Notes under the pieces: generated by a model | What the model saw: only the letters and a program-made list of their open reading frames with translations | Told to the model about the DNA's origin: nothing | Databases searched by the model: none | Part shown: positions 3,160 through 19,038 of the stretch, piece by piece | How the letters are laid out: every line of letters starts with the position of its first letter | Numbering within the stretch: position 1 is the first letter of the stretch | Assembly: GCA_020720045.1 (NCBI GenBank) | Contig: DYPH01000072.1 | Coordinates: 1 to 32,168, forward strand | From: Sorangium cellulosum | GTDB lineage: Bacteria > Myxococcota_A > Polyangia > Polyangiales > Polyangiaceae | Reading direction: 5' to 3' | DNA length: 32,168 nt | Made by a program: the position numbers and the translations under genes

Positions 3160-3235
3160 TCCGGTTTAGCTCAGTCGGTAGAGCGGGTGACTGTTAATCA
3201 CCATGTCGTAGGTTCAAGTCCTACAACCGGAGCCA
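3160..3235 (+). tRNA. tRNA-Asn (anticodon GTT), CCA encoded
   Basis: The cloverleaf is complete. The acceptor stem is TCCGGTT/AACCGGA, the D-arm AGCTCAGTCGGTAGAGC, and the anticodon stem GGTGA/TCACC around the loop CTGTTAA (anticodon GTT at 3193-3195). The T-arm is GTAGG-TTCAAGT-CCTAC, the discriminator G, and the terminal CCA is encoded at 3233-3235. GTT reads Asn codons. A hairpin terminator follows. The 3' end of a tRNA is a common integration site, and the accessory island begins just to the right. Confidence 0.97.
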
Positions 3236-3563: not shown

Positions 3564-4466
3564 TCACCCCCGACGAGCGGCGTCTTGGGCCGCCCACGTC
3601 TCGCGCAGATGCTGAAGCGCCGACTTCGGACGGCTCGTCGGCGCGCAGCGCGCGAGGATGACCTTCCATCCGTTCCGAGCTGCAGCCGCCTCCGCGACGA
3701 TCCCGGCGACCTCGGCGGGGTCGACGCGCTCCTCCGAGATGCGCCGCTCCGCCCCGTACTCGGCGGCCAGAGCCCGGCGCTCGGCGGGGTTCTTCGCGCG
3801 CTCGAGCACGCGCGCATACGCCTCGCACGAGTACGCGAAGGTCTCGCGCTTGCGGTACTCGATGTCGAGGAGCCACTCCTTCGTCCTCGTCTCGCGAAGG
3901 CCGACGGTGGCGCGCTTGCAGTTGTGGAAGATGTGCGCGGCCTCGTGGACGACGAAGTCGGCGAAGGGATCGTCCTCGGTGAAGTAGTCGGGCGAGACGT
4001 AGCAGGTCGTCTCCTCGCTCAGCCCAACGAGTCGCGGCGCGTTGTCGCCGAGCAGCTCGGCACCGAGGCTCGCGAGGTACAGGTTCGCCAGCGTCCAGGC
4101 CGAGCTGTCGTAGCCGTGCTCGATCATGATCGGCTCGATGTTCGCGCTCGTGAGGAAGACGACGGACTTCTGGAGCGTCGCGAGCACTGCGTCCTGCTCC
4201 ACGCGCGGGAACAGCCCGCGCACCATCGGCTCGACCTTGGCCCGCGTCAGGGCGACGGTGTCCGCCTGCGGCAGCGGCTCGTGGGCGAGTCCCTCGGCAA
4301 GTCGGCGGACCTCGCGAACGAGGGCACCGCGGAGGTCATCGTGGGCGCGGTTCGCGCGATCCATGAAGCCGTTCCCTGGCCAGGCCGCATGGTGCGGGTC
4401 GGTCTCGCCGGTCCGGATGTAGCGCTCGACCTCGTCGGCGATCGTGGTGGGCGCGCTCTTCCTCAC
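3564..4466 (-). CDS. Putative zinc metallopeptidase (zincin), 300 aa
   Basis: The protein carries FVVHEAAHIFHN, an HExxH zinc-binding and catalytic motif, at about residues 172-183. About 30 residues later comes KRETFAYSCEAYARVLE, whose first Glu fits the third zinc ligand of a gluzincin. The N-terminal half is helical and soluble; there is no signal peptide. I do not recognise a named family. It starts with GTG at 4466 and is divergent from the sigma-54 activator gene, about 120 bases away, so the two may share a regulatory region. By position it could belong to the same stress or defence island, as a protease effector or processing enzyme, or it could be independent. The motif is clear; substrate and role are unknown. 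Confidence 0.75.
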   Translation of the reverse strand: MRKSAPTTIADEVERYIRTGETDPHHAAWPGNGFMDRANRAHDDLRGALVREVRRLAEGLAHEPLPQADTVALTRAKVEPMVRGLFPRVEQDAVLATLQKSVVFLTSANIEPIMIEHGYDSSAWTLANLYLASLGAELLGDNAPRLVGLSEETTCYVSPDYFTEDDPFADFVVHEAAHIFHNCKRATVGLRETRTKEWLLDIEYRKRETFAYSCEAYARVLERAKNPAERRALAAEYGAERRISEERVDPAEVAGIVAEAAAARNGWKVILARCAPTSRPKSALQHLRETWAAQDAARRG

Positions 4467-4511
4467 CGGCGCATCCTACCCCGGCCTCCCAGTGTCGCCG
4501 AGCGGCCCGCG

Positions 4512-4528
4512 CACCGGGCGGACCGGTG
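4512..4528. promoter_or_regulatory. Inverted repeat between protease gene and activator gene
   Basis: CACCGG (4512-4517) and CCGGTG (4523-4528) are exact inverted repeats with a 5-base spacer. They lie in the short divergent region 4467-4584. The site could bind the activator itself or another regulator controlling both genes. Only 6-bp arms in GC-rich DNA make chance a real possibility. Confidence 0.3.
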
Positions 4529-4584
4529 ATCCGCTGAGCACAAGGACGATTGTTCCTCCGCAAGGTTCCTTGTACCCTGGCCCC

Positions 4585-6102
4585 ATGCGGCGGGTCCTCC
4601 TTGCGTGGGTCGGGGTCTCGGACCTGAACGGACCGGGAAAAGAGGCGACCGGGGATCTCGGGCCGGTCGCCCAGGCCCTTGCCGTGCGTCCCTTCGACCA
4701 GGTCGTATTGCTCGAGTACTTCGGGAAGCCGGCGCACCAGGAGATGCTGCCCGGCTACGTTGCTTGGCTTCGCGCACGGACCACCGCCGACGTGGTGGAG
4801 CGCCCGGAAGCACTTCGTGGGCCTACGGACTTCGGCGGCATCTACGAGGCTGCCCGCAGTGCGTGCAGGAGCGCGCTTGAAGCGGGCGGTCCGGGCAGCA
4901 CCTCGCTTTCCTTCCACCTGAGTTCAGGCGCGCCTCCGATGGCGGCCGTCTGGATGCTGCTGGGCAAGACACTCTTCCCGGCCGAGTTGATCGAGTCCTC
5001 GCGCGAACAGGGCGTGAAGACCGCCGAGATCCCGTTCGACATCGCGGCGGAGTTCCTGCCGGACCTCCTGCGTGAGCAAGACGAGCGGCTGCGGGAGCAG
5101 AGCGCCGCCGAGCCACCGGCGACGCCTGAGTTCGCGGACATCATCCACCGTAGCCGCGTGATGACCCGGCTGGTTCAGCGCTCACGCCGAGTGGCCATCC
5201 GGAACGTGCCGGTGTTGATCGAGGGAGAGTCCGGCACCGGCAAGGAGCTGCTCGCGCGGGCGATTCACCAAGCAAGCCCCCGTCGCGGAAAGCCCTTCGT
5301 CGCGGTCAACTGCGGAGCGATTCCCGAGCAGCTGATCGAGTCCGAGCTCTTCGGCATCGCGAAGGGCGTCGCCACGGGGACCGACGCGCGGGAGGGCTTC
5401 TTCAAAGTAGCCGATGGCGGGGTCCTGTTCCTCGACGAACTCGGCGAGCTCCCCGGGTCCGCGCAGGTGAAACTCCTTCGCGCGCTGCAGGAAGGAGCCG
5501 TCACCAAGCTCGGAACCCGAACACCCGAGAAGGTCGACGTGCGCGTGGTCGCGGCCACCAACCGCAACCTCGCCGACGAGGTCGCCGCGGGCCGGTTCCG
5601 CGAGGACCTCTTCTACCGGCTCGCGGTTGCGGTGCTGAAGATTCCTCCGCTGCGCGAGCGCTCGGGCGACGTTGGCTTGCTCGTCGATCGACTGCTCGAA
5701 CAGGTGAACCGGGAGTCCGCAGGCGACCCCGGGTTCAAGGACAAGAAGCTTTCTGCCGGCGCAAGAAATCTTCTCCTTGCTCACCCGTGGCCCGGCAACG
5801 TCCGCGAGCTGCTGAACACGCTCCGGCGCGCTGCCATCTGGACCGAGTCGAACACGATCTCGGCCGAAGACGCACGCGAGGCCCTCCTCCCGGTGCCGGG
5901 CGCCCGGCGCCACGACGTGCTCGGACGGCCACTCGGCGGCGGCCTCAACCTCCCTGAACTACTGAGTGAAGTCGCGAAGCACTATTTCGATCGCGCGCTC
6001 GACGAAGCCGCCGGCAACAAGACCAAGGCCGCGGAGCTCGTCGGCCTTCCGAGCTACCAAACCCTCACAAACTGGCTGCAGCGCTACGGAGTGAAGCGAT
6101 GA
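4585..6102 (+). CDS. Sigma-54-dependent activator with RtcR/CARF-like sensor domain
   Basis: The 505-residue protein has three parts. Residues 1-165 form a Rossmann-like sensor with HLSSGAPPMAAVWMLLGK (about 111-128) and IPFDIAAEFLPDLL, resembling the N-terminal CARF-type domain of RtcR-family regulators. Residues 185-420 are the sigma-54-interacting AAA+ domain: Walker A GESGTGKE (214-221), Walker B LFLDE (281-285), sensor I VVAATNRN, arginine-finger region FREDLFYRL, and WPGNVREL. The C-terminus is a Fis-type helix-turn-helix (AGNKTKAAELVGLPSYQTLTNWLQRYG). The loop normally reading GAFTGA is GVATGT (261-266). The ATG at 4585 was chosen because the sensor's first strand begins there, although no clear Shine-Dalgarno sequence precedes it. 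A sigma-54 promoter lies 30 bases downstream of the stop, so this regulator very likely drives the operon from 6202. RtcR proteins sense RNA ends or cyclic phosphates; the ligand here is unknown. Confidence 0.92.
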   Translation: MRRVLLAWVGVSDLNGPGKEATGDLGPVAQALAVRPFDQVVLLEYFGKPAHQEMLPGYVAWLRARTTADVVERPEALRGPTDFGGIYEAARSACRSALEAGGPGSTSLSFHLSSGAPPMAAVWMLLGKTLFPAELIESSREQGVKTAEIPFDIAAEFLPDLLREQDERLREQSAAEPPATPEFADIIHRSRVMTRLVQRSRRVAIRNVPVLIEGESGTGKELLARAIHQASPRRGKPFVAVNCGAIPEQLIESELFGIAKGVATGTDAREGFFKVADGGVLFLDELGELPGSAQVKLLRALQEGAVTKLGTRTPEKVDVRVVAATNRNLADEVAAGRFREDLFYRLAVAVLKIPPLRERSGDVGLLVDRLLEQVNRESAGDPGFKDKKLSAGARNLLLAHPWPGNVRELLNTLRRAAIWTESNTISAEDAREALLPVPGARRHDVLGRPLGGGLNLPELLSEVAKHYFDRALDEAAGNKTKAAELVGLPSYQTLTNWLQRYGVKR

Positions 6103-6131
6103 AACCGCCTCCGGCGACGCAGAGTTTCTCG

Positions 6132-6148
6132 CTGGCACGGCGTTCGCT
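6132..6148 (+). promoter_or_regulatory. Sigma-54 (-24/-12) promoter for the operon
   Basis: The sequence CTGGCACGGCGTTCGCT matches the RpoN consensus YTGGCACG-N4-TTGCW with one mismatch (TCGC instead of TTGC). The invariant GG (6134-6135) and GC (6146-6147) are at the required 12-base offset. Predicted transcription start is near 6159, giving a leader of about 43 bases with AAAGGAG ahead of the ATG at 6202. It sits between the sigma-54 activator gene and the gene set it would control. Confidence 0.85.
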
Positions 6149-6201
6149 TTACGGCCTCTCGGTCGCCGCATTCCGCGGCATCAACCGAAAGGAGCCGTTC
6201 G

Positions 6202-6528
6202 ATGTCGACTGCCCTCGCTGCGCTGCCTTCGACCCTGGGGAGCTTCTCGCTGACGAACCACGCGCTGGCGCGAATGACGACGCGGGCGATCTCGCGAACC
6301 GCCATCGAGGCGGCTCTCGAGTTCGGTCGATGCGTCGACATCCGTGGCGCGCAGATCTTCGCGATCGGTCGCAGAGAGGTGGAGAGCTTCCGTCGCGAAG
6401 GCATCGAGCTCGCGGACTTCGAGGGCACCCAGGTCGTGGTGACCGACGGAGGAGCAGTCCTCACCGTGTACCGAAACAGCGACTTCAGGGGCCTGCGCGA
6501 GCGACGTCGCCGCAGCGCCTGGCGGTGA
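6202..6528 (+). CDS. DUF4258-like small protein, first gene of the operon
   Basis: The 108-residue product contains NHALARMTTRAISRTAIEAALEFG, IFAIGRREVE and VVVTDGGAVLTVYRNSDF. This order (H..RM..R.IS...IE.AL..G, then VVV....G.V.TVYR) fits the DUF4258 pattern, a small RelE/BrnT-like fold family. Many relatives of that fold are RNase toxins, but function cannot be read from sequence here. AAAGGAG lies 6 bases before the ATG. It is the first gene after the sigma-54 promoter, and its stop is 8 bases before the TerY-like gene. No antitoxin-like partner lies beside it, so a simple toxin-antitoxin role is not supported. It could be an RNA-binding or signal-output component. Confidence 0.7.
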   Translation: MSTALAALPSTLGSFSLTNHALARMTTRAISRTAIEAALEFGRCVDIRGAQIFAIGRREVESFRREGIELADFEGTQVVVTDGGAVLTVYRNSDFRGLRERRRRSAWR

Positions 6529-6536
6529 GGTGACTG

Positions 6537-7334
6537 ATGGGCTGGGCCAAGTACCTCGAAGACATCGTCAGTCGACACAACGGCACGTCGCGCGTCCAAG
6601 CAGAGATCAAGAAGGTCGCCGAACACCGAGAGCAGCCGAAGCCCTCGCCGAAGAACATTGGAGAGAGAGTCATGAGCAAACTGAAAGAGTTCACAGCTTC
6701 CACCGCAAGACCGCTGCCCGTGCTGCTGCTCGCCGACGTCAGCGGAAGCATGAGCGCCAACGGCAAGATCGATGCGCTCAACGACGCTGTGCAGGAGATG
6801 CTGGAGAGCTTCGGCGGGGAGGATGATAGCCGCGCCGAGATCCACGTCGCCGTCGTGACGTTTGGCAAGGACGGCGCGAAGGTTCACCAGCCACTCGCCC
6901 CGGCCTCCAAGGTCCAGTGGTCCCGGATGACGGCCGCCGGCGGCACGCCGATGGGTGCTGCGTTCGACGCGGCGACGGGGATGATCGAGGACCGAGCGCA
7001 GATCCCGAGCCGCGCCTACCGCCCAACGATCATTCTCGTCTCCGATGGGCAGCCGACCGACGATTGGCAGGCTCCGCTAAAGCGTCTGCTCGGCGCCGAG
7101 CGCGCCTCGAAGGCAGCTCGCTTCGCGATGGGAATCGGCGACGACGCCGACGAGGGCATGCTCGCTGCGTTCCTCGCGACAGCCGAGGCGCGTGTCTACC
7201 GCGCCCACGAGGCACGCCAGATCAAGCAGTTCTTCAGGTGGGTGACGATGAGCGTCACGCAACGCTCGCGTAGCGCGAATCCTGACAGCGTGATCGCTGC
7301 GGAGCCGACCAACCTCGATGACTTCAACTTCTGA
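6537..7334 (+). CDS. TerY-like von Willebrand factor A (VWA) domain protein
   Basis: VLLLADVSGSMSANGK carries the metal-binding DxSxS motif (D67, S69, S71). TAAGGTPMGAAFDAA gives the MIDAS Thr, and ILVSDGQPTDDW the MIDAS Asp. The C-terminus has AHEARQIKQFFRWVTMSVTQRS, typical of TerY-like proteins. TerY VWA proteins are linked to a PP2C phosphatase and a kinase in the TerY-phosphorylation triad, and those two genes follow here. Two starts are possible: ATG 6537 (GAGG 6 bases upstream, 265 aa) and ATG 6672 (GGAGAG 6 bases upstream, 220 aa). The extra 45 residues begin MGWAKYLEDIVSRHNG and then become Lys/Glu/Pro-rich. The gene overlaps the phosphatase gene by 17 bases. Cytoplasmic; probably a metal-dependent scaffold. 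Confidence 0.9.
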   Translation: MGWAKYLEDIVSRHNGTSRVQAEIKKVAEHREQPKPSPKNIGERVMSKLKEFTASTARPLPVLLLADVSGSMSANGKIDALNDAVQEMLESFGGEDDSRAEIHVAVVTFGKDGAKVHQPLAPASKVQWSRMTAAGGTPMGAAFDAATGMIEDRAQIPSRAYRPTIILVSDGQPTDDWQAPLKRLLGAERASKAARFAMGIGDDADEGMLAAFLATAEARVYRAHEARQIKQFFRWVTMSVTQRSRSANPDSVIAAEPTNLDDFNF

Positions 7335-8073
7335 TCGCGCCGAGGACCTCGTGTCGAAACGCTCACCCGACGACTACTTCGGCGCCAGCGCGGTCGGACC
7401 GCGGCACCGCGCCCAAGGAGAGCCCAACGAGGACAGTTGGCTCGGAGTTCGTGGAGCGTTCGGGACGTTGGTCGTCGTCAGCGACGGAATGGGCTCTCGG
7501 CGCGACGCCCGCAGAGGCGCGCAGATGGCCTGCCGGGCGGTGCTCGATGCGGTGCGCGCCTGGCACAAGGCGGGCTCGTGCACCCTGGACGAACTCCTTG
7601 GCGGCATCGAGCCGCGCTGGTGTTCGCTCATCGCTCCGTCGACGGCTCGAGACTGTGCTGCGACGTGTCTGTTTGCGTTGGCGCACGTCCGCGGGCAGGT
7701 CCATGTCGCGGCGATCGGCGATGGCCTCGCGCTGCTCCGAACGCAGCGCGGGCTGGAGTGGGTCGTGGGCCCGCGCGTAGCAGGTTTCGGCAACGAGACG
7801 GACGCTCTCGGCCATTCCGCGTCGTGGACGAGCCGAACCTTCCCGCGCGAGGGAGGAGCGGTCGTTCTGCTCGCGACCGATGGCGTCGCGGACGATCTCC
7901 TTCCTGAGCGCATCGACGGGTTCGTGCAGTGGTTGATGGACGACTTCGCGGGGATGACGCCATCCCAGCGGTGGCGGGCGCTGCAGCGAGAGCTGAAAGA
8001 CTGGCCGACCCCGCACCACACGGATGACAAGACACTCGTCGTGCTCGCGCAGCGAGAGGCGGTGCTCGCATGA
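7318..8073 (+). CDS. PP2C-family Ser/Thr protein phosphatase
   Basis: The 251-residue protein has the PP2C metal-binding motifs in order: GEPNEDSW (E38-D39), VVVSDGMGS (DGMG at 56-59), VHVAAIGDGLALL, VLLATDGVADDL and the final HTDDKTLVVL. The length matches a single PPM/PP2C domain with no added domains. It removes phosphate from Ser/Thr using two divalent metal ions. It starts inside the end of the VWA gene and overlaps the kinase gene by four bases (ATGA), so translation is coupled. Its natural substrate is probably the neighbouring kinase or a target of it, as proposed for TerY-phosphorylation triads. Confidence 0.93.
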   Translation: MTSTSDRAEDLVSKRSPDDYFGASAVGPRHRAQGEPNEDSWLGVRGAFGTLVVVSDGMGSRRDARRGAQMACRAVLDAVRAWHKAGSCTLDELLGGIEPRWCSLIAPSTARDCAATCLFALAHVRGQVHVAAIGDGLALLRTQRGLEWVVGPRVAGFGNETDALGHSASWTSRTFPREGGAVVLLATDGVADDLLPERIDGFVQWLMDDFAGMTPSQRWRALQRELKDWPTPHHTDDKTLVVLAQREAVLA

Positions 8074-9470
8074 CCTCGGCTCCTCGACAGGTCACGGACA
8101 TCAACGGCGTTCGCTACTCCCTGCTTCGGCAGTTGGGTCGAGGTGGCCAGGGTGCGGTCTACGAGGTCGACGGCGGGCGGCTCGCCGCAAAGGTCGTATT
8201 CGACTCGTCGCCGTCACGACGCGAGCGCCTGCGCAACCAACTCACGCAGGTGAAGCGCCTCTCGCTCGCCGACCTCGAGATCGCGCGGCCGCTCGAGATG
8301 CTCCGCGAACCAGTCCTCGGCTACGTGATGGAGCTGCTGACGGGGATGCAGCCGCTGAGGGCGCTGGGCGCGGTCCCCAAGGACGTGGCCTCACCGGCTG
8401 CCTGGTACCTCGCGGGCGGCGGCCTGCGGCGCCGTCTTCAGCTCCTCGCGCGCAGCGCCGACGTGCTCGCCGCCCTTCACGGCAAGGGGCTCGTCTACTC
8501 CGACCCGTCACCCCACAACATCTTCGTCTCTGAAAGCCCAGACGCGACCGAGGTGCGCTTCATCGACGCGGACAACATCCACTACGCGTCGGTCGCAGGC
8601 GTGCCCGCCGTCTTCACGCCGGGCTACGGCGCGCCGGAACTCGTGCGCTGCGCCAGCGGCGTCAATTCGCTCACGGACGCGCACGCATTCAGCGTTCTCG
8701 CGTTTCAGACGCTCTCACTCGCCCACCCGCTCATCGGCGACGCGGTCAGTGATGGGCCTCCCGATCGCGAGGAGGCGGCGCTCGACGGACGCCTGCCATG
8801 GATCGACCACCCGACCGACGATACCAACCGCGCGTCTTACGGCATTCCCCGGCCGTCCGTGTTGTCGCGAAAGCTCGTCGACCTCGCCGAGAGAGCCTTC
8901 GGCGCGGGGCTGCGCGAGGCGACCAAGCGCCCTGGCGTGTCCGAGTGGGCCGAGTGTCTTCACGGCGCCGCCGACGCCACGCTGTCGTGCCCATCGTGCA
9001 AGGGGACCTACTACTTCACCGAGAAGCTCTGCCCTTGGTGTGACGAGCCCCGACCCGCTTTCGCGACTGCGGCCTTCAACCTGTGGGACCCCTCGCTCGG
9101 TCCGGGTGGTGAGCTTCTCCAGAAGCCCGCTGGTGAGCGGCGACGCGTGGTGGTCGCTGCCGTGCTCGGGCTGACCGACGGCGAGACCGTGTCGGTCACA
9201 CAGCGCCTCGCGCATGGCCGTGACGGCGCCGCTAGCGCGCGCCCCGTGATCGAGCTTCAGCTCTCCGGCTCGAGGCTCTCGCTCCGTAGCGTCGACGGCG
9301 CCCGCTACCGGCTTTCGTCTCCGAGCGGCGGTCGCGACGCCGAAGTGACCGACCGCGTGAAGGAGATCCGTCTCGAGCCAGGCGCGGCCTCGTGGCGCCT
9401 CCACCTCGGCTCTCCCGACAGCCTGCACCGCGTCGTGAACTTTGAACTTCGGCCGGGAGGAGCACGATGA
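8070..9470 (+). CDS. Atypical Ser/Thr protein kinase with zinc ribbon
   Basis: The N-terminal 290 residues form a protein kinase domain: glycine loop GRGGQGAVY (23-31), lysine AAK (K41), catalytic loop VYSDPSPHNIF (D145, N150) and metal-binding FIDADN (D166). HRD is replaced by YSD and DFG by DAD. Such variants occur in bacterial TerY-linked kinases and keep the acidic residues, so activity is plausible. A zinc ribbon follows (CPSC at 307-310 and CPWC at 321-324), then about 140 residues of beta-rich sequence (LQLSGSRLSLRSVDGARYRLSS) that could be an FHA-like or other binding domain. It is coupled by ATGA overlaps to the phosphatase gene before it and the helicase gene after it. No transmembrane segment. 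Confidence 0.9.
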   Translation: MTSAPRQVTDINGVRYSLLRQLGRGGQGAVYEVDGGRLAAKVVFDSSPSRRERLRNQLTQVKRLSLADLEIARPLEMLREPVLGYVMELLTGMQPLRALGAVPKDVASPAAWYLAGGGLRRRLQLLARSADVLAALHGKGLVYSDPSPHNIFVSESPDATEVRFIDADNIHYASVAGVPAVFTPGYGAPELVRCASGVNSLTDAHAFSVLAFQTLSLAHPLIGDAVSDGPPDREEAALDGRLPWIDHPTDDTNRASYGIPRPSVLSRKLVDLAERAFGAGLREATKRPGVSEWAECLHGAADATLSCPSCKGTYYFTEKLCPWCDEPRPAFATAAFNLWDPSLGPGGELLQKPAGERRRVVVAAVLGLTDGETVSVTQRLAHGRDGAASARPVIELQLSGSRLSLRSVDGARYRLSSPSGGRDAEVTDRVKEIRLEPGAASWRLHLGSPDSLHRVVNFELRPGGAR

Positions 9471-12400
9471 ACATCAACGACCTGGCCTCTGGAGATGTCT
9501 CGACCATCGAGGTCGTGCCGAGCGCGGCGGCCAACTTCGGCCTCGCCGCCGAGGCTCGAGCGGAGGCGGCGCTGCAGTTCTCCGATGTCACCGGCGAGTC
9601 GTTGCTGCGCATCGGGCCCAACGCGTGGAGCGTCGTCGGCGCTGACAGGCGCGCGTCTGAAGCGCTCCAACGCGTCCGCGATCGGAATCTCCCGCGCGTC
9701 GCGTGGGTCGCTTCCGTTCGTCCGAAGGGGAAGACCACCGAAGCGGTCCTTCTTCAGGTCCATGAGTTCCCCTCTCGGTACGACTGGCCCGATCAGGTCG
9801 ACATCGGCGTCGACGACAAACTGGTCGAGCAGGTGCGGCAGAAGCTCGGTCGCAGCGTCTCGGCCGGCGAGGCGACGCAGTGGCTGAGCGATCGCTTCCT
9901 CCTGCCAGCAGCGGATGGTGGCTCCAGGGTGTTCCTCTCGGGCAGCCCGACACCGGTGACCGACCAGCGCGGCGCGTTTCGCCTTCATGGCCGTGGGTAC
10001 GCGGTCGACGTGGCGAAGGGGCGCGACGACAAGCTCCTCGCGACTCGGGTCGTGGAAGCGAAGCGCGGCACAGCGCCAGACGAGCGCCGTCCGGTAGTCC
10101 TCGTGCTCGGGCGTGTTCGGTTCTGCGATGCGACCATCGCTGGCGCGTTTCGCGGCACCGCGCGAACCGAACTCGACCAGCTCGTCGAGCGGGCGGGCAG
10201 TTACCTCAACATCTGGAAGGAGTACAACAAGCTCGAGCGCGAGAGCGTGCTGCGCCGCGCGCGAACCCTGGGTTGGCTCCGCTACAGCAAGCGGCAGCTT
10301 CAGGGAGACGGGCGGTGGCGCTTCTACGTCGAGGACACAAAGCAGCTCGATGCCGCCCTCGAGGTGTTGCGCAACGCGGAGGACGTCGACTTAGAAGCTG
10401 CCCTGCACCCGCCTCCCGAGTTGCAGCAGGCGACCGACGACGCCGCGACGCCGACTGATGGGGCTGCCGCTCGCCCGGAGCGGTCGCGGATCTTTGTCGG
10501 TGCGTTCTCGGGTGCCGAGCCCCAGCGTCGCACGATCGACCTGCAGCCTCCCATCGACAGCGACGACCGCGAGCCGCCCGAAAGCGGCGTGCTGTTCCTG
10601 AGCGTGAGCGGCGACCGCAAGCGCCTCGAACGCCGCGAGCAGGCGCAGACGCTCATCGCGTCGGCCGAGTGCCCTATGCCTCAGCTCGGCCTCCTCCTCG
10701 AGGGCAGCGCTGTTCCGGAGCGGCGCAGGAAGACTGAGGACGCGCTCTCGGTCGCTGCGCGCGAAGTGTTCGGCGGGGAGCCCACGGCGAGGCAGGTCGA
10801 GGCGCTGCGCGTGGCGCTCAACACGCCCGACATCGCCTTGATTCAGGGCCCGCCGGGTACCGGCAAGACGAAGACGATCGCTGCGCTCGAGGCCCGCCTC
10901 GCTGAGCTGTCGGAGGACGACCTCGCCGGCCAAACCTTGCTCACGAGCTACCAACACGACGCGGTCGAGAACGCCGCGTCGAAGACCCTCGTATTCGGTC
11001 TTCCGGCGATCAAGGTCGGGCGCAAGCGCGGGACCACCGACCAGAGCGACGGGTTCGATCGATGGCGACGGGATCGAGCTGACGCTGTGCGCGCGGACCT
11101 GTCTACGCTCCCTGAACGCCCGGTGACCGAGGTGCTCCGCAAGGTCCGCTCGCTTGCCGCCGCCTACGTCGCGTCGCCGCTCACTGCCGACGAGTCGCTG
11201 CGAGTCGTGTGTGAAGTTCAGGAGCTTTGCCGCAGCTACGTCCCGCCGACGCTCAAAGATCGACTCGACGTGCTTCGCCAGGAGCTCACGCGCTCCCCCA
11301 CGCAGCTCGGTGACCCCGAGGATGACGATCGAGCACTTGCCCTCAAAGCAGTTCGGGGGCTTCGCACAGACGCCGTTGCGTTCGGCGATGACGGCCCTCG
11401 GAACGCTGGGCGCGCGCTCCTTCGCCTTCAGCACATGGGGTTGTACGAAGAGACCAAGCACCGCGTCCTGAGCGTCGCAGCGGAATGGGCCAGCGATGAC
11501 CCGCCCCCGTTCTTCGCCGAGCTGAAGGCGCTGCAGGACAAGCTGATCGATTTCCTGGCGGCCGAGAAGCCCGTGGGAGCCCCGATGGTCCACGGCGAGC
11601 TCGAGAGTCTCCTGCCGGAGATCGTGGACGCGCTGTACTGCAAGGCACGCGAGTCGGCGGGTGGCGAGGACGCGGTGCTCTACGAGTACCTCAACGACCT
11701 CGAGAACGACATCGACGCCGTTCGCGACGCGGTTCGAAGTTACACCGTCGTGCTCGCGGCCACCTGCCAGCAGTCGGTTGGCTACCAGATGAGCTTGGCG
11801 AAGGGCGAGGACACCGTCTTCGCCAATGTGATCGTCGACGAGGCAGCACGCGCGAACCCTCTCGATCTATTCATCCCGATGTCGCGGGCCGAGCGGCGCA
11901 TCATCCTGGTCGGAGACCACCGACAGCTACCGCACATCCTCGAGCCCGACATCGAGAGCCAGCTTGAACAGTCCGTCTCCGAGGCGACGACGACTGCGCT
12001 ACGCCGGAGCCTCTTCGAGCGCTTGTTCCAGGCGATGAAGGAGCGGGAGGCGAAGGACGGCATCAAGCGGACCGTCACGCTCGACAAGCAGTACCGGATG
12101 CACCCTGTGCTGGGCTCGTTCGTCAGCGACACGTTCTACGCTCCCTACGGCGAAGGCTTCGAGTCGCCGCGGCGCGCAGAGGAGTTCGTGCACGACCTGC
12201 CGGGCTACGCCGGGCGCGTCGCCGCGTGGGTCGACATGCCCCTGTCACGTGGCCGTGAGCATGGCGGCCAAAGCAAGCGCCGGGCTGTAGAGGCCGAGTG
12301 GATCGCGAAGGAGGTCGAGCGCCTGGCGACGGCGCGCCGTGATCTCAGCTTCGGCGTCATCTCCTTCTACTCCGCGCAGGTAGACGAGGTCCTGCGCGCG

Positions 12401-12796
12401 ATGGAGAAGCGCGGGTTGTCGGAGCGGCTCGACGACGGCTCCTACCGCGTGAAGGACGCTTGGCGCGAGACGCGCAGCGAGGACGGGCGACTCATTGAGC
12501 GCTTGCGGGTGGGCACTGTCGACGCTTTCCAGGGCAAGGAGTTCGACGTCGTGTTCTTGTCGATGACGAGGTCGAACGACCTGTCCGCGTCAGACGAGCG
12601 ATCCCTTCGACGCAAGCTGGGACACCTGATGCTCGAGAATCGCCTGTGCGTCGCCATGAGCCGGCAGCAGCGCCTGCTCATCGTGGTCGGCGACGCGGCG
12701 ATGCTGAGGGGCGAAGCGTCGGAGAAGGCCCTGCGTGGCCTCGTCGGCTTCCGCGAACTCTGTGGAGGGAAGCATGGCATTGCTCTTCAGGCGTGA
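9467..12796 (+). CDS. UPF1/DNA2-like superfamily 1 helicase, 1109 aa
   Basis: The C-terminal 650 residues are an SF1B helicase: Walker A QGPPGTGKTKT (K467), motif II IVDEAARANP (D791-E792), motif III ILVGDHRQLPHIL, motif IV-like LDKQYRMHP (Q875), motif V VGTVDAFQGKEFDVVFLS (about 1017) and motif VI LCVAMSRQQRLLIVVGD (about 1062). Motif II is DEAA. About 250 residues between motifs Ia and II form an insertion with helices and possibly a stalk, as in UPF1-like enzymes. The first 440 residues match nothing I recognise; they include KEYNKLERESVLRRARTLGWLRY and may bind nucleic acid. It should hydrolyse ATP and translocate on RNA or DNA. It overlaps the kinase gene by four bases and the next gene by 23. 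Confidence 0.93.
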   Translation: MNINDLASGDVSTIEVVPSAAANFGLAAEARAEAALQFSDVTGESLLRIGPNAWSVVGADRRASEALQRVRDRNLPRVAWVASVRPKGKTTEAVLLQVHEFPSRYDWPDQVDIGVDDKLVEQVRQKLGRSVSAGEATQWLSDRFLLPAADGGSRVFLSGSPTPVTDQRGAFRLHGRGYAVDVAKGRDDKLLATRVVEAKRGTAPDERRPVVLVLGRVRFCDATIAGAFRGTARTELDQLVERAGSYLNIWKEYNKLERESVLRRARTLGWLRYSKRQLQGDGRWRFYVEDTKQLDAALEVLRNAEDVDLEAALHPPPELQQATDDAATPTDGAAARPERSRIFVGAFSGAEPQRRTIDLQPPIDSDDREPPESGVLFLSVSGDRKRLERREQAQTLIASAECPMPQLGLLLEGSAVPERRRKTEDALSVAAREVFGGEPTARQVEALRVALNTPDIALIQGPPGTGKTKTIAALEARLAELSEDDLAGQTLLTSYQHDAVENAASKTLVFGLPAIKVGRKRGTTDQSDGFDRWRRDRADAVRADLSTLPERPVTEVLRKVRSLAAAYVASPLTADESLRVVCEVQELCRSYVPPTLKDRLDVLRQELTRSPTQLGDPEDDDRALALKAVRGLRTDAVAFGDDGPRNAGRALLRLQHMGLYEETKHRVLSVAAEWASDDPPPFFAELKALQDKLIDFLAAEKPVGAPMVHGELESLLPEIVDALYCKARESAGGEDAVLYEYLNDLENDIDAVRDAVRSYTVVLAATCQQSVGYQMSLAKGEDTVFANVIVDEAARANPLDLFIPMSRAERRIILVGDHRQLPHILEPDIESQLEQSVSEATTTALRRSLFERLFQAMKEREAKDGIKRTVTLDKQYRMHPVLGSFVSDTFYAPYGEGFESPRRAEEFVHDLPGYAGRVAAWVDMPLSRGREHGGQSKRRAVEAEWIAKEVERLATARRDLSFGVISFYSAQVDEVLRAMEKRGLSERLDDGSYRVKDAWRETRSEDGRLIERLRVGTVDAFQGKEFDVVFLSMTRSNDLSASDERSLRRKLGHLMLENRLCVAMSRQQRLLIVVGDAAMLRGEASEKALRGLVGFRELCGGKHGIALQA

Positions 12797-14363
12797 AGCG
12801 CCGGTCCTCCACTTCGGGCCACGGCTGCCCAAGGACCCGAGCACGAACCAACGGATGCGGTGGAGCCCGGGCAAGCGACGCTTCGTCTTGTGGCCCGCGC
12901 TGATGTACCGCGTCGTGGCCCCAGAGGTGCGAGACCGCGAGCTCAACGTGCTCCAGAAGGCGGTGCTGGGGATGTGCCGCGCTGGGACCACGAACGTCCA
13001 GCGCATCGGCGAGCGGCTCCACATCCATGCGGACCTCGCGGCCCTCATCTACATCGAACTGCAGGAGCGTCGGCTGCTCGGCAGCAATGGGCTTCCGACC
13101 GAAAAGGGGCGCGAACTCTTCGAGGAGGAGACGCTGGACGCGAGTCGGATGGTGACGGGGCACGTGTTCCAGGACCCGTGGACCGGCGACCTCTGGCCGC
13201 GTTTCGTCGAGAAGCTCGACTACGTCGAGCTGCAGCAGAACCCGAACAGCGGGTTCCCCGACCTCGTGCTCGGGTCCAAAGGGAAGCCGCGCCGAGAGCG
13301 AGCGTTCATGGTGCTTCCGGGCGACCTCGCGCTTCCTCCCGCACCTGGCGCATCCGAAATCGTCCGTGTGACCCGTCGACATCGCTCCGCGCTTCGACGC
13401 TCGGACTCCTACGAGAGCGCCGATGAGGATGACACGCTCGCTCACGCCGGCAGCGTCGTTCTGGAACGCGTTTCGCTGGTCGACGAGCGACCCACCCCCG
13501 TCTTCGTTACCAGCTTCATCTATCTGTCCGAGGCGGGTGACGTCGGCGGCGAGTGGCACGCGTGTGACCCCTTCGGCCTCGGGATCAGCCCGACGCTGCG
13601 GCGTGCGCTCGAGCGCGAGATGCGGTCGTCGTCGGGGCTCCACTCCGTCCTTGAGAGCATGATCGGCCGCTCGCTCGACGAGCAGATCCAGGAGCAGCAG
13701 CGTTGGGCGGGCGAGGTTCGGGCGATGGCCATCAACAACGTCGAGATGGCGCTGTCCGTCAGCGCCCGCGATCTACCTCAGTACGAGGACCTCGTCGCGC
13801 TCGAATACGCGCATGTCGAGGCCGGGTTGCTCGGCGAGTCATGCCCTGAGCACAAGCTGCGCGACCTCCTCGGTGCCGCACGCCGCGCATTGGAGGGCAC
13901 GTTCAAGGCGATCTTCGACCGTCACCCTCCGCGCTTCGTCTGGCGCCGCGTCTACACCGATCGACGGCCTGTCGAGGACGAGGTGTACTGCCAAGGGGTG
14001 TACGAGGCTTCGGCGAAGGCCGTGGGGTTCCGTGTGCCGCTACCCGAGGCGCTGGCACGGGTGAAGCCGAACCATGTGAAGGCTGCCTGCTACCCGGACG
14101 GCGGTTGGCGGCTGCGTGGCGCAATCGTCGCCGCCGTGCTCGCGGCGCGTGACGACCGCGCGCATCCCCTACGTCGCGCGGCCACCCAGGAGCCGAGACT
14201 CCTCGAAGTGCTCGACAACGTCGCCAGGAGGGCCGGCGGTGCGGTTCACGCGGGAGCCGAGCGACCGTCCCTCCAGTCGGTGCTGCCAATCGTTGCCGAC
14301 GTTCATCGCGCTGTGGGCCTGCTCTCCGGCCTCGGCCAGCCGTTCGACTCCACGAGGACCTGA
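12774..14363 (+). CDS. Unknown operon protein with possible winged helix, 529 aa
   Basis: I do not recognise this family. The ATG at 12774 has GGAGGG 3 bases upstream; the open frame extends a little further (12735), but those residues lie in the helicase gene. Residues about 50-115 (LNVLQKAVLGMCRAGTTNVQ, RIGERLHIHADLAALIYIEL and QERRLLGSNGLPTEKGRELF) have the shape of a winged helix-turn-helix with a terminal TEKG wing. The middle has GHVFQDPWTGDLWPRFVEKL and long polar loops. The C-terminal half has FDRHPPRFVWRRVYTDRRPVED. There is no visible nuclease or membrane motif. It overlaps the helicase gene by 23 bases and precedes the McrB-like gene by 5 bases, so it is a core operon member and a likely partner of one of them. 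Confidence 0.75.
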   Translation: MALLFRREAPVLHFGPRLPKDPSTNQRMRWSPGKRRFVLWPALMYRVVAPEVRDRELNVLQKAVLGMCRAGTTNVQRIGERLHIHADLAALIYIELQERRLLGSNGLPTEKGRELFEEETLDASRMVTGHVFQDPWTGDLWPRFVEKLDYVELQQNPNSGFPDLVLGSKGKPRRERAFMVLPGDLALPPAPGASEIVRVTRRHRSALRRSDSYESADEDDTLAHAGSVVLERVSLVDERPTPVFVTSFIYLSEAGDVGGEWHACDPFGLGISPTLRRALEREMRSSSGLHSVLESMIGRSLDEQIQEQQRWAGEVRAMAINNVEMALSVSARDLPQYEDLVALEYAHVEAGLLGESCPEHKLRDLLGAARRALEGTFKAIFDRHPPRFVWRRVYTDRRPVEDEVYCQGVYEASAKAVGFRVPLPEALARVKPNHVKAACYPDGGWRLRGAIVAAVLAARDDRAHPLRRAATQEPRLLEVLDNVARRAGGAVHAGAERPSLQSVLPIVADVHRAVGLLSGLGQPFDSTRT

Positions 14364-14368
14364 CAGCC

Positions 14369-16837
14369 ATGAGCAAGAAGAACAAGCACCGCCAGCAGCA
14401 CCAGCAGGCCAAGGCGCCGGATTCCTCGTCGACGACTAGCGTCCCGCCGCTTATCGCGGCAACGCCGCAGACCCCCGAGGCCGCGCTCGCCACCATCGCA
14501 GCCGCCAACGAGACTGCCATTGCGGCAGCGACAGAGGCCGACTTGGAGATCGCTCTCGTCACGCCTCCGGCTGCCACGGCATCGACGCTCGACGTCGTCG
14601 CTACGGCCAAGCTGGTCGACGAGACGGTGGCGCTGTGTGGGGCCCGCGACGCACGCCTCGCTAAACGCGAGATGGAACTCGCCGCGCTGGAGGTGGACAT
14701 GCTTGCGCGCGACGAGGGACTGAAGGCGCGCGCGACGACTCTTGAGGAATCCGAGCGCACTCTCAAGGCGGACGGAGACGGGGTGAAGGAGGCTGAGGCG
14801 AGGCTTCATCTGCGAGAGCTCGACCTGCAAGGGCGCGAGAAGGTCATCCGAGACAGGGAGCTGAACGCGGAGGCGGGCTTCGCAGTCGAACGCAGGACCT
14901 CCCTGCAGCAGCTCGATAATGAGGCCGCAGCCCTGCGCGAAGAGCTGTCGAATGCGCGGGCGCAGATCTCGAGAGAACGTGCGGCATGGGAAGCCGAGCG
15001 CCGCGCCGAGGACGCGCGCAGGCGCGACGAGCACCGGCAGGCACTCGCCTCACACGAAGCGACGATCGCTGCAGGCGAGCGTGAAGGCGCCGAGCGGGTT
15101 CGGCTCGAACGCGAGCAGCTCACGAAGGACCGGGCGGACCTGAAGAAGCGAGCTACGCAGGTGGACCTCGAGCGAGATGTTCTGCGCGAGGACCGTGAGG
15201 CGTTCGATGAGCGCGTCGCCCGGCGAGCTGCCCATGAACTCGAGGCCGCGAAGGCCAAGCAGCGGGATCTCGAAGCCCGCCTGTTGAGCGCTCAGGCCGG
15301 GAGAGACGAGCTGTACGAGAAGCTGCGTCTGCGCGATGACGCAGAGCGTGCGCTCGGCAATCGCCCGCTCGAGGAGGTGAAGAGGGAGCTCGACGCGCTC
15401 GTGAAGGAGTGCGCCTCCCTGAAGGCGCAGCTCGCCAAGCGGCCCAACCAGGACGTCACGGAGCGGCTCGCCACGCTCGAGCGCGCGCAGGAGGACTGGG
15501 AGGCAGAGCGCGCGCGGCTCACGCAGGAAAGCGTCGCCGCGAGGACGGGACTGGCGAAGGCATCGATCGCCGTCACAGAACTCGAGACGCTCCGCGACCA
15601 GAAGGCTGCGTTGGAGAGCGCCCGGGACCTCCTGCACACGGCGCTCGAGGAGCTGCGCAAGGACGTCAACGAGCGCATTCGACGCGCCGACGGCGTGAGC
15701 CCGTTCCCGTCATGCAGCCAGATGGACGCCGACAGTGGGCTCCAGACCCAGACGCCCGTCACCGATGATATCTCGGACCTGAAAGCGTTCTGCCAGGACC
15801 TCCAGCACCGCATCGCCATCGATCCGGCCAACCCGGACAAGGTGCTGTTCTACGAGCTGCGGGACATCCGCTGCTTCTTGGGCGGCCTCGCGATGAGCCG
15901 ACTCCACCTGCTGCAAGGCATCAGCGGAACCGGCAAGACGAGCCTGCCCCTCGCGGTCGCGCGAGCGTTCGGCGCGGGCTCCACCCTCGTCGAGGTGCAG
16001 GCCGGCTGGCGCGATCGCCAGGATCTCGTCGGGCACTTCAACGCCTTCGAGCGGCGGTTCTACGAATCCGAGTTCCTGCAGGCGCTCTACCGCGCGCAGT
16101 GCCCTCGCTACTCAGGGCTCGTCAACATCGTCGTTCTCGACGAGATGAACCTCTCCCATCCCGAGCAGTACTTCGCTGACCTACTCTCGGCGCTCGAGCA
16201 GGATCCGCGCATCCAGAAGCTCGATCTCATGACGGCACCGGTCGAGCCTGCGCCGGCGCACCTCCGCAACGGCCGCACGCTCACGATCCCGCAGAACGTG
16301 TGGTTCGTTGGCACCGCGAACCACGACGAGACGACCAAGGACTTCGCGGACAAGACCTACGACCGCGCCCACGTGATGGAGTTGCCTCGCAACCGCGCGC
16401 AGTTCCAACCGCAGCGCCTGCCCGCGCGGGCGCCGGTCTCGTTCGACGCCGTGCGCACGGCGTTCGCCAAGGCGCAGCAGGCTCACGAGGCCAAGGCGAA
16501 GGATGCCTACTCGTTCGTTGACGGCTCTTTCGCAGACATCCTCGGGCGTCGCTTCGGTGTGGGTTGGGGCAATCGCCTCGAGCGCCAGATGCTCGACTTC
16601 GTTCCGGTCGTCGTCGCGGCTGGCGGAACGGTGGGGGAAGCGGTCGACCACATCCTCGCGACGAAGCTCCTGCGCAAGGTTCGCGATCGGCATGACACGC
16701 GGCCCGAGGATCTCACGGCCCTCAACGAGCGGATCGCGGAGGTTTGGCCGAAGCTGGACAAGACGGCAGGGCCGGTACGTTCTACGGCCATCGTTCGCGA
16801 AGAGCTGCGTCGACTCGGAGCAGAGGAAGAGGCGTGA
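14369..16837 (+). CDS. Coiled-coil McrB-like AAA+ NTPase, 822 aa
   Basis: Residues about 1-95 are low-complexity Ala/Thr/Gln-rich. Residues about 95-450 are a long, highly charged coiled coil (Glu/Arg/Ala-rich). Residues about 490-800 are a McrB-type AAA+ domain: Walker A GISGTGKTS (K523), AGWRDRQDLVGHFNAFERRF, Walker B VVLDEMNLSHPEQYFADLLS (D591-E592), and FVGTANHDETTKDFADKTYDRAHVMEL at about 646-672. The DEMNL.HPE.YF.DLLS.LE block and the GT.N.DE motif are diagnostic of McrB-like motors. McrB normally hydrolyses GTP, and the N.(D/E) motif is its nucleotide-specificity site. The usual DNA-reading N-terminal domain is replaced by the coiled coil. It overlaps the next gene by four bases. Confidence 0.92.
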   Translation: MSKKNKHRQQHQQAKAPDSSSTTSVPPLIAATPQTPEAALATIAAANETAIAAATEADLEIALVTPPAATASTLDVVATAKLVDETVALCGARDARLAKREMELAALEVDMLARDEGLKARATTLEESERTLKADGDGVKEAEARLHLRELDLQGREKVIRDRELNAEAGFAVERRTSLQQLDNEAAALREELSNARAQISRERAAWEAERRAEDARRRDEHRQALASHEATIAAGEREGAERVRLEREQLTKDRADLKKRATQVDLERDVLREDREAFDERVARRAAHELEAAKAKQRDLEARLLSAQAGRDELYEKLRLRDDAERALGNRPLEEVKRELDALVKECASLKAQLAKRPNQDVTERLATLERAQEDWEAERARLTQESVAARTGLAKASIAVTELETLRDQKAALESARDLLHTALEELRKDVNERIRRADGVSPFPSCSQMDADSGLQTQTPVTDDISDLKAFCQDLQHRIAIDPANPDKVLFYELRDIRCFLGGLAMSRLHLLQGISGTGKTSLPLAVARAFGAGSTLVEVQAGWRDRQDLVGHFNAFERRFYESEFLQALYRAQCPRYSGLVNIVVLDEMNLSHPEQYFADLLSALEQDPRIQKLDLMTAPVEPAPAHLRNGRTLTIPQNVWFVGTANHDETTKDFADKTYDRAHVMELPRNRAQFQPQRLPARAPVSFDAVRTAFAKAQQAHEAKAKDAYSFVDGSFADILGRRFGVGWGNRLERQMLDFVPVVVAAGGTVGEAVDHILATKLLRKVRDRHDTRPEDLTALNERIAEVWPKLDKTAGPVRSTAIVREELRRLGAEEEA

Positions 16838-19038
16838 GCATTCGAGTCCACGACCGACTCGGCGCCATCGGCGAAGCGCGCAGCGGTGTTGCGCTACTCG
16901 GTCGCTTCGTCGTGCGCGAGAGCGCCCCGGGCGAACTGTTCATGAACTCGCTCCCGGCGTGCGACGGGATGTTCCTGGTGCCGGAGTCGGGTGGGCGCTG
17001 GCATCTGCTGCGAGTCGCCGAGCGCGTCGACGGCACCTTCGCGCGCGCTCAGATGCTTGACCCGCTGGACGTCGCGAGCATTCGAACGGTCGGGCGTAGC
17101 CTGGGCGAGGTAGTCGCCCAAGGCGGGACGTGGCTCGATGTGCTTGACGTCTCGCCGTTGGTCCCGGGCATGTCGAACCGCGCGGAGTTTCAGCGTTTCG
17201 AGCAACTGCTCAAGGAGAACGTCGGGCATCTCGAAGAGGTGTGCCGGAGGCCGCGCACCCACCTGCGCGTCGAGGTCGAGCGGATGGCCGTCTCGCGTGC
17301 CCGGCGATTTCCGGCGCAGGCTGCGAACTACCTCGCCGCGCACACGGAGGACTGGGAACGGCCGACTCTGCGCTCCGTCGTGCCCAAGAGGATTCTTGCC
17401 ACGGTGCGTGAGGACCAGTTCGACATCTACGAGAACCGCGTCGCGGTCCGGCTCGTCGACCACGTCGTGGTGTACCTGCGCCGGCGCGTTCACGAGGTGA
17501 CGCGGCTTCTGCGTGTGTTCGGGGAGGCGGCTGGGAACCACGACGCGGCAGCAGGTGGCTCGCACTGGCGTCAGAGGCGCATCTATCGGCTGTGGGGAGA
17601 GACGCTCGACGCGAGCGAGGCGAAGCGGAAGGCTGAGCGTACCCTCGGGCAACTGAAACACCTCCTGTTCACGATCTCCGGGCTGAAGGACTCCGTGCTC
17701 TACCGCGAGGTCCCGCGACGGGCGACAGTTGGCACTACGCTCACGATGACGAACATCCTCAGTGACGACGCCCACTACCGGCGCGTTGCTGAGCTGTGGC
17801 TCGAGTGGGCTCGGCTCGGCCAGGAGCAGGCCGTCCGGCCGCGCGCGTACTTCGAGGAGATGCAGGACCTCTGTCGCTCGTTCGACAGCTTCGCGCTGCT
17901 GTTGACGCTACGGGCGCTCGACCAGCTCGGGTTCGAGCCGACCGACCTGGAGCGGTCGCTCTCCCATCGCGAGGTCGAGGTGCGTCACGGCTCGCGGGTC
18001 GTGCGCTTGTCGTGGGCCACGACGTCCGGTGCGATATCGCTTCAAGGGGATGGCGTCGAGCCGCTGCGCATCGTTCCGCTCTGTAGCTCCCTCGCGGCAC
18101 TCGATGATGAGCAGCTTCGCGGCGTGCTCGCCGACGCTGATGCGCACGCTGGCACTGGCACGACGACGGTCATCCTCTACCCGTCACCTTCCGATGCCGC
18201 TGCGTTCGAGCACCTCGCCCCGGAGCTTGCAGGGCGGCTCCGGTCGCTTGCCCATGAGGCCGGAAGAGAGGGCCGGCGAGGAGTCGGCTTCTTGCCGGTG
18301 TCCCCGTGGGACATCGGCAGCGTGGAGCGAATGACACGCCAGCTTCGCTGGGTGACAACCGCCCCGACGTACCTCGCGTACCCCCCAACGATCGCGCGGC
18401 CGGAGCTGTCGGACATCAGTCGCGAGCAGACTTGGCTCGCGGTGGTCGGCGAGACCGTGCGGGTGCTTCGGCCCCCCCTCGACAGCGAGTCGCTCGATCC
18501 CGGTCGCCTCGTCAGCGAAGCGAGCGCTCGGCTTGAGCAGTTCAAGAAGGAGCGCGAGGTCGTTTCCCTTCAAGGGCGCGAGGCAGTTCGTGAAGGTGAG
18601 AGAACGCGCAACATCAACGCGCGCAAGAAGGAGTTACACGCGGACATCACCGACGCGGAGAAGCGGCTCAATGCGCTTCAGCGTTTCGAGTTGGATCTTG
18701 GGCAGGCACTCGAAGTCGTCCGGGACCTGCTGTCGTGTCCGACGTGCGATCGACGCGCAGACGCGCGCCGAGACTTCCACCCGATGGGCCAGCACTTCTC
18801 CTGCACCTGCTCTGACTGTTCGACGACGTGGGGGACGATTGCTTGCGGTCGCTGCTCGAAGTCGATCCCCGTGCTGCGGCTCCACGGAACTGCTTGGACG
18901 ACAATGGCTGGCGAGCCGGGGTGGATCGACCGGATGCTGGGTGCCGACGTGCTCGCGGTGCCCCGGGTCGTTGGCTCGGAGATCGGGTTCGTGTGCCCGT
19001 CCTGCGGCGACGGCCGTGGTGATTCGGTCGACGCGTAG
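16834..19038 (+). CDS. DUF2357/McrC-partner-like protein with zinc ribbons, 734 aa
   Basis: GTG 16834 overlaps the McrB-like stop (GTGA) and has AGAGGAAGAGGC just upstream. An earlier ATG at 16744 in the same frame lies in the McrB-like gene and is unlikely. FDIYENRVAVRLVDHVVVYLRRR at about 192-214 resembles the DUF2357 core (ENR..K..), a family encoded beside McrB-like motors in place of McrC. A coiled coil spans about 560-630. The C-terminus holds several zinc knuckles: CPTCDRRA, CTCSDC, CGRCSKS and CPSCGDG (about 635-730). I cannot find a PD-(D/E)XK nuclease signature, which many McrC-like partners carry. It likely assembles with the McrB-like motor and reads nucleic acid through the zinc ribbons. 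The DUF2357 assignment is moderate. Confidence 0.78.
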   Translation: MSIRVHDRLGAIGEARSGVALLGRFVVRESAPGELFMNSLPACDGMFLVPESGGRWHLLRVAERVDGTFARAQMLDPLDVASIRTVGRSLGEVVAQGGTWLDVLDVSPLVPGMSNRAEFQRFEQLLKENVGHLEEVCRRPRTHLRVEVERMAVSRARRFPAQAANYLAAHTEDWERPTLRSVVPKRILATVREDQFDIYENRVAVRLVDHVVVYLRRRVHEVTRLLRVFGEAAGNHDAAAGGSHWRQRRIYRLWGETLDASEAKRKAERTLGQLKHLLFTISGLKDSVLYREVPRRATVGTTLTMTNILSDDAHYRRVAELWLEWARLGQEQAVRPRAYFEEMQDLCRSFDSFALLLTLRALDQLGFEPTDLERSLSHREVEVRHGSRVVRLSWATTSGAISLQGDGVEPLRIVPLCSSLAALDDEQLRGVLADADAHAGTGTTTVILYPSPSDAAAFEHLAPELAGRLRSLAHEAGREGRRGVGFLPVSPWDIGSVERMTRQLRWVTTAPTYLAYPPTIARPELSDISREQTWLAVVGETVRVLRPPLDSESLDPGRLVSEASARLEQFKKEREVVSLQGREAVREGERTRNINARKKELHADITDAEKRLNALQRFELDLGQALEVVRDLLSCPTCDRRADARRDFHPMGQHFSCTCSDCSTTWGTIACGRCSKSIPVLRLHGTAWTTMAGEPGWIDRMLGADVLAVPRVVGSEIGFVCPSCGDGRGDSVDA

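Follow-up and report, generated by a model that had tools for sequence, protein, structure and literature searches.

Candidate enhancer sites inside the gene of a CARF-type activator and a putative sigma-54 promoter of the adjacent CoCoNuT-like operon in Sorangium cellulosum

A contig of Sorangium cellulosum (DYPH01000072.1, assembly GCA_020720045.1; positions 1 to 32,168, the whole stretch analyzed and here called the window) carries a gene for a putative transcriptional activator with CARF, AAA+, and helix-turn-helix (HTH) domains, followed in the same direction by an operon that resembles TerY-P/CoCoNuT defense operons. A -24/-12 box of the sigma-54 type lies between the two, and similar pairs of short dyads occur directly before the activator gene and within it. 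The features of this control region are as follows.

4540-4553, no strand assigned: upstream dyad 1, ACAAGGACGATTGT, candidate activator-binding site (dyad search; 20-bp spacing in 57/68 loci)
4560-4573, no strand assigned: upstream dyad 2, GCAAGGTTCCTTGT, 11 bases before the activator ATG (dyad search, matrix)
4585-6102, + strand: activator gene with N-terminal CARF, sigma-54 AAA+, and C-terminal HTH, ATG at 4585 (PADLOC PDLC01995, Pfam)
5741-5754, no strand assigned: intragenic dyad 1, ACAAGAAGCTTTCT, within the activator coding sequence (dyad search, codon analysis, matrix)
5761-5774, no strand assigned: intragenic dyad 2, GCAAGAAATCTTCT (codons GCA AGA AAT CTT), 20 bp after dyad 1 (same basis)
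6133-6148, + strand: putative sigma-54 -24/-12 promoter box, TGGCACGGCGTTCGCT (consensus match and recurrence in relatives)
6159, + strand: predicted transcription start (by numbering from the -12 element)

The activator matches the PADLOC class RtcR_PspF2 (PDLC01995) with 610 bits across profile positions 2-481 of 481. Its Pfam matches are Sigma54_activat (213.5 bits) and HTH_8 (20.8 bits, cut-off 22); Pfam gave no CARF match, and the CARF domain is known from the name of the PADLOC profile. The protein falls below the threshold for canonical RtcR (NCBIfam NF038308, 304.5 bits, cut-off 650). A sigma-54 gene is present in the assembly, where PF04552 has a single match (195.2 bits).

The consensus of sigma-54 promoters is TGGCACGN4TTGCW. 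The box at 6133-6148 departs from it by one mismatch (T to C) and keeps the GG and GC doublets intact at their 12-base offset, so that the scan of the window bears out the near-perfect box of the original prediction. It is the sole match with at most one mismatch on either strand of the window, where order-1 Markov sequences yield about 0.25 by chance; taken alone, without relatives, it is suggestive evidence short of decisive. The predicted distance of 30 bases from the activator stop, which ends at 6102, was correct, and that to the operon ATG at 6202 is 53 bases rather than 54. With 6147 taken as -12, the box predicts +1 at 6159, as had been proposed. The significance of the box comes from the recurrence of its place and strand in relatives.

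Relatives were fetched by CARF-domain similarity alone, and the best 80 of 304 loci (given here by L numbers) were compared; their record titles place them in Myxococcota, Pseudomonadota, Desulfobacterota, Planctomycetota, Gemmatimonadota, Acidobacteria, Latescibacteria, Binatota, Verrucomicrobia, and others. They are unequally related, and the statistical tests ignore relatedness. Seventy-two loci have the 250 bp after the activator stop that make them testable downstream (the other 8 of the 80 end sooner, and in L086 and L107, within the 72, the activator frame is truncated). A coding-strand box that keeps both doublets and has no more than two mismatches lies within these 250 bp in 42 of the 72 (12 perfect, 26 with one mismatch, and 4 with two), compared with none of the 72 on the opposite strand and 0.9% of 2,721 random 250-bp windows from the same loci. 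The box that the original prediction expected in homologous loci is accordingly there, with some relatives lacking it. Upstream of the activator, boxes are found on the divergent strand in 20/79 loci and on the coding strand in 2/79. The codirectional boxes start 0-4 bp past the stop codon in 32 of 41 loci, and exactly at 0 in 19.

A matrix built from the boxes was trained on 41 loci among those scored, and the unbiased counts are the consensus-based 42/72. With this matrix, several loci first called divergent (L050, L051, L055, L057, and L059) were seen to carry a downstream box as well, with TTGAA or TTGAT at -12, and hence some activator genes are flanked by boxes on both sides. In L049, L050, L051, L054, L055, L057, and L059, TGGCACGN4TTGAA (TTGAT in L059) abuts the stop codon, with A replacing the C that is conserved at -12; these boxes may be a functional variant or a decaying promoter. 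The divergent first genes of L051, L055, and L057 are weakly DUF2130-like, below the cut-off.

On the basis of its recurrent position and strand, a chance box was rejected. A chance or decayed origin of the site at 6133-6148, with the operon driven from elsewhere, is, in our estimate, barely credible, even with the quarter of a match expected per window, the altered base in the -12 element, and two plasmid loci of the same operon type (L153 and L155) that have no recognizable box. Place and strand are shared by the 42 relatives, and among the eight loci with the operon type of the window six (L043-L048) have the box. A scan of 4440-6700 found no sigma-70-like promoter, which is weak evidence since about none is expected in such DNA. 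Comparison of sequences thus supports 6133-6148 as a putative sigma-54 promoter of the downstream defense operon, with the adjacent CARF-AAA+-HTH protein as its probable activator. The idea that a sigma-54 activator sits here to serve the box is likewise supported, given the activator, the sigma-54 gene, and the fitting position and strand of the box.

The activator start is preceded by the dyad RCAAG-N4-CTTGT, mostly in two copies. A spacing of 20 bp separates the best two upstream dyads in 57 of the 68 loci, out of 81, that pass the score limits. The dyad pair recurs within the activator coding sequence, at 5741-5774 in the window, with the same spacing of 20 bp as in the upstream pair. Codon usage at this place was analyzed for the window and 70 loci, altogether 71 full-length activators, with residues numbered from the CARF start. 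Codons here end in A or T even where the gene is G+C-rich. The 27 genes with a third-position G+C content above 0.78 have a mean third-position A/T share of 0.17, and seven of their eight highest A/T columns fall in residues 387-394, a clustering reached by none of 20,000 column permutations. Alanine 391 is encoded by GCA in 65 of the 71 genes, including 23 of the 27 G+C-rich ones, where GCA accounts for 9% of alanines. Arginine 392 is AGA in 12 of these 27 (compared with 2.9%), and where lysine takes its place the codon is AAA.

A matrix from 137 upstream sites has its best match in the coding sequence at the intragenic place in 63 of the 71 genes and ranks this place in the top three in 67. 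The intragenic score beats synonymous-codon shuffles (p<=0.05) in 61/71. These shuffles, together with 35 control activators, also served to test protein conservation as the cause of the pattern, which was rejected. The controls comprised other enhancer-binding-protein loci of this genome (29 in all, with the frame found by motif search in 21) and 14 CARF activators with an NTLKRK-type HTH. Neither set has a comparable cluster: the A/T share per position is at most 0.43 in the 21 genome loci (background 0.28) and at most 0.29 in the 14 CARF activators (background 0.14).

The NTLKRK-type loci examined have no strong upstream RCAAG dyad. Of these 14 loci, 10 have a divergent box that departs from the consensus at no more than two positions, and a matrix score of 9 is reached by 6/13. 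Since divergent boxes are present and RCAAG dyads absent, activators of the NTLKRK type probably use another enhancer sequence. In L014, L017, L019-L023, L027, L028, and L031, all with this type of HTH, the sigma-54-like box is divergent and mostly about 121-129 bp upstream.

The intragenic pair is linked to the downstream box. It is present in 54 of 56 loci with the box and in 9 of 15 without (Fisher p=0.0008); for the upstream pair no link of this kind was seen (p=0.21). L119, one of the two loci with a box but a weak pair, is an artifact of the region limit, and its sites lie at -333/-353. From the center of the pair to the -24 doublet downstream, the distance is 342-352 bp in 45 of the 56 loci with a box; in the window it is 376 bp. 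Held-out loci were those of L002-L042 and L153-L157 that were outside the training set (by a 60-base probe) and lacked an NTLKRK-type HTH. This leaves out L010 (the window), L011 (truncated), L016 (other HTH type), L029 and L037 (in training), and the NTLKRK loci. The best coding-sequence match fell at the intragenic place, which was scored as yes, in 12 of 14 held-out loci with a box and in 5 of 9 without; the second site is weak in L009, L012, L032, L033, and L035.

Box score >=9, pair place yes: L005, L009, L012, L018, L032, L033, L034, L035, L036, L039, L154, L157
Box score >=9, pair place no: L030 (HTH type unclear), L040 (HTH ending GRQSVTDWM)
Without box, pair place yes: L008 (weak), L015, L153, L155 (weak), L156 (box 8.0, just below the limit)
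Without box, pair place no: L013, L038, L041, L042

Neither dyad pair is found in L040 and L041, whose HTH ends in GRQSVTDWM and GRQSVADWM, respectively, as would be expected if HTH type and dyad were linked. The box and the intragenic pair occur with no recognizable upstream pair in two plasmid loci, L154 (Azotobacter) and L157 (Pseudomonas luteola), which suggests the downstream promoter as the target of the intragenic pair.

The two pairs could instead divide the work differently. With the box still the operon promoter, the intragenic pair might be an auxiliary operator that loops with 4540-4573 for self-repression, and the enhancer of the operon would be the upstream pair 1.6 kb off. The dyad and 20-bp spacing common to both pairs and the place of the upstream pair directly before the start codon are consistent with this arrangement, as is the persistence of the intragenic pair in 9 of the 15 loci in which no downstream box was recognized. 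We consider it unlikely, because it is the intragenic pair and not the upstream pair that tracks the downstream box, because the intragenic pair is lost where the box is divergent but not downstream (L109, L110, L038, and L042), and because L154 and L157 retain it with no upstream pair to be seen.

The intragenic stretch might also act through RNA or translation, by an inter-site hairpin or codon-mediated pausing, with its likeness to the upstream dyads secondary. The stretch is coding and has rare codons in G+C-rich genes, and the two sites of the window can pair as RNA (46 nt, -15.3 kcal/mol, z -2.2). Across loci, the four central cross-site positions pair at 0.281 compared with 0.252 for shuffled partners, a value reached by 2/2000 with relatedness uncorrected. 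Yet only 28% of these four central pairs form (64 loci), the fold of 116 nt is ordinary (z -0.8), and a matrix made from noncoding upstream sites finds the intragenic stretch, again with a spacing of 20 bp. A hairpin between the intragenic sites is therefore weakly supported, and an effect through RNA or translation seems quite improbable.

We favor the reading in which the box is the operon promoter and the adjacent protein its activator, working from an intragenic enhancer at 5741-5774 in its own gene, and give it a probability of a little under 0.8. Comparison among loci is the basis for the box, its position, both dyad pairs, the apparent DNA-level constraint inside the gene, and the co-occurrence of the intragenic pair with a downstream box. 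For the steps that follow from them (binding by the activator, looping, the ligand, silence when uninduced, and expression) we infer the following scheme. The activator would bind the same kind of dyad at two places, 4540-4573 and 5741-5774. The upstream pair, by its placement, probably regulates transcription of the activator itself and serves the divergent promoter where one is present; the intragenic pair would act as enhancer on the operon promoter, which lies about 375 bp on in the same direction. In the uninduced state, sigma-54 polymerase would wait at 6133-6148, and the CARF domain would keep the activator inactive. Binding of a ligand to the CARF domain would free the AAA+ ring, which could then loop across the ~375 bp from the intragenic enhancer and open the promoter. 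Because sigma-54 promoters are generally silent until their activator is triggered, the operon is expected to be silent until triggered as well. RNA ends with a cyclic phosphate have been proposed as the ligand of RtcR-like CARF proteins in the accessible parts of two reports (PMC4012209, PMC11090510).

Several observations weigh against the activator acting from within its own gene on the box, in addition to the boxless plasmid loci L153 and L155, the 9 of 15 loci that keep the pair with no recognized box, and the RNA pairing in the window, all given above. The altered base of the box in the window is a C within the conserved TT of the -12 element. A terminator-like pattern at 6130-6142 overlaps the box (two such patterns were found in the stretch, with 1.5 expected). 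The intragenic sites depart from the upstream consensus in their right half, with TTCT for TTGT. Among the held-out loci, L030 and L040 reach the box score with no intragenic pair, 5 of 9 loci without a box keep the pair, and L035 and L009 are weak among the 12 positives. Between the intragenic pair and the box there is no IHF-like site with at most one mismatch, and one match with two mismatches.

The operon itself comprises eight genes from the DUF4258 gene on, which overlap or are separated by gaps of at most 8 bases.

6202-6528, + strand: DUF4258 protein, first gene of the operon, with AAAGGAG just upstream (Pfam PF14076, 26.3 bits, cut-off 25)
6537-7334, + strand: VWA protein, TerY-like (Pfam, PADLOC; the PADLOC TerY match is weak)
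7318-8073, + strand: PP2C phosphatase (Pfam; the PADLOC PP2C match is weak)
8070-9470, + strand: protein kinase, third member of the TerY-P triad (Pfam Pkinase, 29.8 bits, cut-off 31.7; PADLOC PD-T4-6)
9467-12796, + strand: SF1 helicase, CnuH-like/MkoA-like (Pfam, PADLOC)
12735-14363, + strand: possible CnuE-like protein (weak: winged-HTH match of 17.1 of 27 bits; RDDRAH, RxxxxH, by eye)
14369-16837, + strand: CnuB-like McrB-family GTPase with an NHD-E (NxD) motif (Pfam AAA_5, 26.1 bits, cut-off 22; GTANHDE by eye)
16744-19038, + strand: possible CnuC-like protein with Cys pairs; limits are those of the open reading frame, and GTG at 16834 is the likelier start (weak: DUF2357, 14.2 bits, cut-off 23.3)

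With its TerY-P triad (VWA, PP2C, and kinase), the operon resembles TerY-P/CoCoNuT defense operons, CnuC and CnuE being weakly supported. Gene order and the NxD motif (GTANHDE, in the protein at 14369) agree with the CoCoNuTs bearing a TerY-P triad after RtcR homologues that are described in the available part of PMC11090510. The same operon type is found at L043-L048 (6 of the 80 loci), and the plasmid loci L153 and L155 begin similarly. Another 36 loci have a downstream box by matrix; 49 of the proteins encoded downstream there (of 125 open reading frames called) were scanned, giving 24 Type I restriction and 9 N6 methylase matches. The scan also took in ten proteins from divergent or other loci. 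The control region is beside differing defense operons, since CoCoNuT-type, Type I restriction, and N6 methylase genes are found downstream.

Control of this kind has been predicted. According to the accessible text of Makarova et al. 2014, RtcR-like CARF proteins occur near restriction systems, and sigma-54-dependent activation of the downstream genes is predicted (PMC4012209). The activator of the window shares with these regulators the domain order, the association with restriction-modification genes, and the predicted mode of activation, and differs in that, as far as that text goes, promoter box and enhancer sites are described for the window only. Control of CoCoNuTs by RtcR homologues is predicted in PMC11090510. 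The superoperons in the part of that report available to us likewise have an RtcR homologue first, followed in one direction by a BrnT-like gene, the TerY-P triad, the helicase, and an NxD McrB-type GTPase, but no cis sites are described in that part. The RtcR/rtcBA promoter system of E. coli, as far as the accessible section of PMC9650030 describes it, is similar in that a CARF-AAA+-HTH protein activates a sigma-54 promoter that has an upstream activation sequence. Loss of the CARF domain is reported there to render RtcR constitutive in vitro. The activator of the window differs from E. coli RtcR in missing the NCBIfam RtcR cut-off, in adjoining a defense-type operon, and in having its candidate enhancer inside its own gene. 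In Myxococcus xanthus, intragenic sigma-54 promoters are known, and sites for the enhancer-binding protein Nla28 lie inside the coding sequences of upstream genes (PMC7910581, accessible part). Those sites are in various genes of one species, whereas the site in the window is in the AAA+ coding region of the activator itself and recurs across several phyla. A search limited to a library of open-access papers found no earlier report of the RCAAG-N4-CTTGT dyad or of an enhancer inside the activator gene.

In several loci, boxes of the sigma-54 type flank the activator gene, each beside a dyad pair of its own. We lean toward viewing the region as an exchangeable cassette, in which the activator coding sequence doubles as the enhancer of whatever defense operon follows. 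Sensor, enhancer, and promoter would be passed between phyla together, as a unit of about 1.6 kb, and be joined to operons of the CoCoNuT type, the Type I restriction type, and others. An enhancer retained across phyla within the AAA+ codons of the activator would account for a switch that remains intact as the gene moves. The comparison also provides cis-regulatory evidence for the printed prediction that RtcR-like CARF proteins switch on downstream defense genes via sigma-54, and suggests that the restriction and CoCoNuT-type operons here are inducible rather than constitutive. The dyad may serve as a marker for finding further operons under such control.

The gene directly upstream of the activator is divergent (3564-4466, - strand). 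Its translation, read by eye, has an HEAAH motif resembling that of zinc peptidases and matches no Pfam family above the cut-off. A tRNA-Asn gene (3160-3235, + strand) lies near the start of the defense region; it was rejected as an attachment site, its last 14-29 bases having no repeat within the window. Behind the CoCoNuT-type genes, a PLD-domain protein (20241-23366, + strand) resembling PADLOC ZacB and PDC-M27B is encoded by a further defense-like gene.
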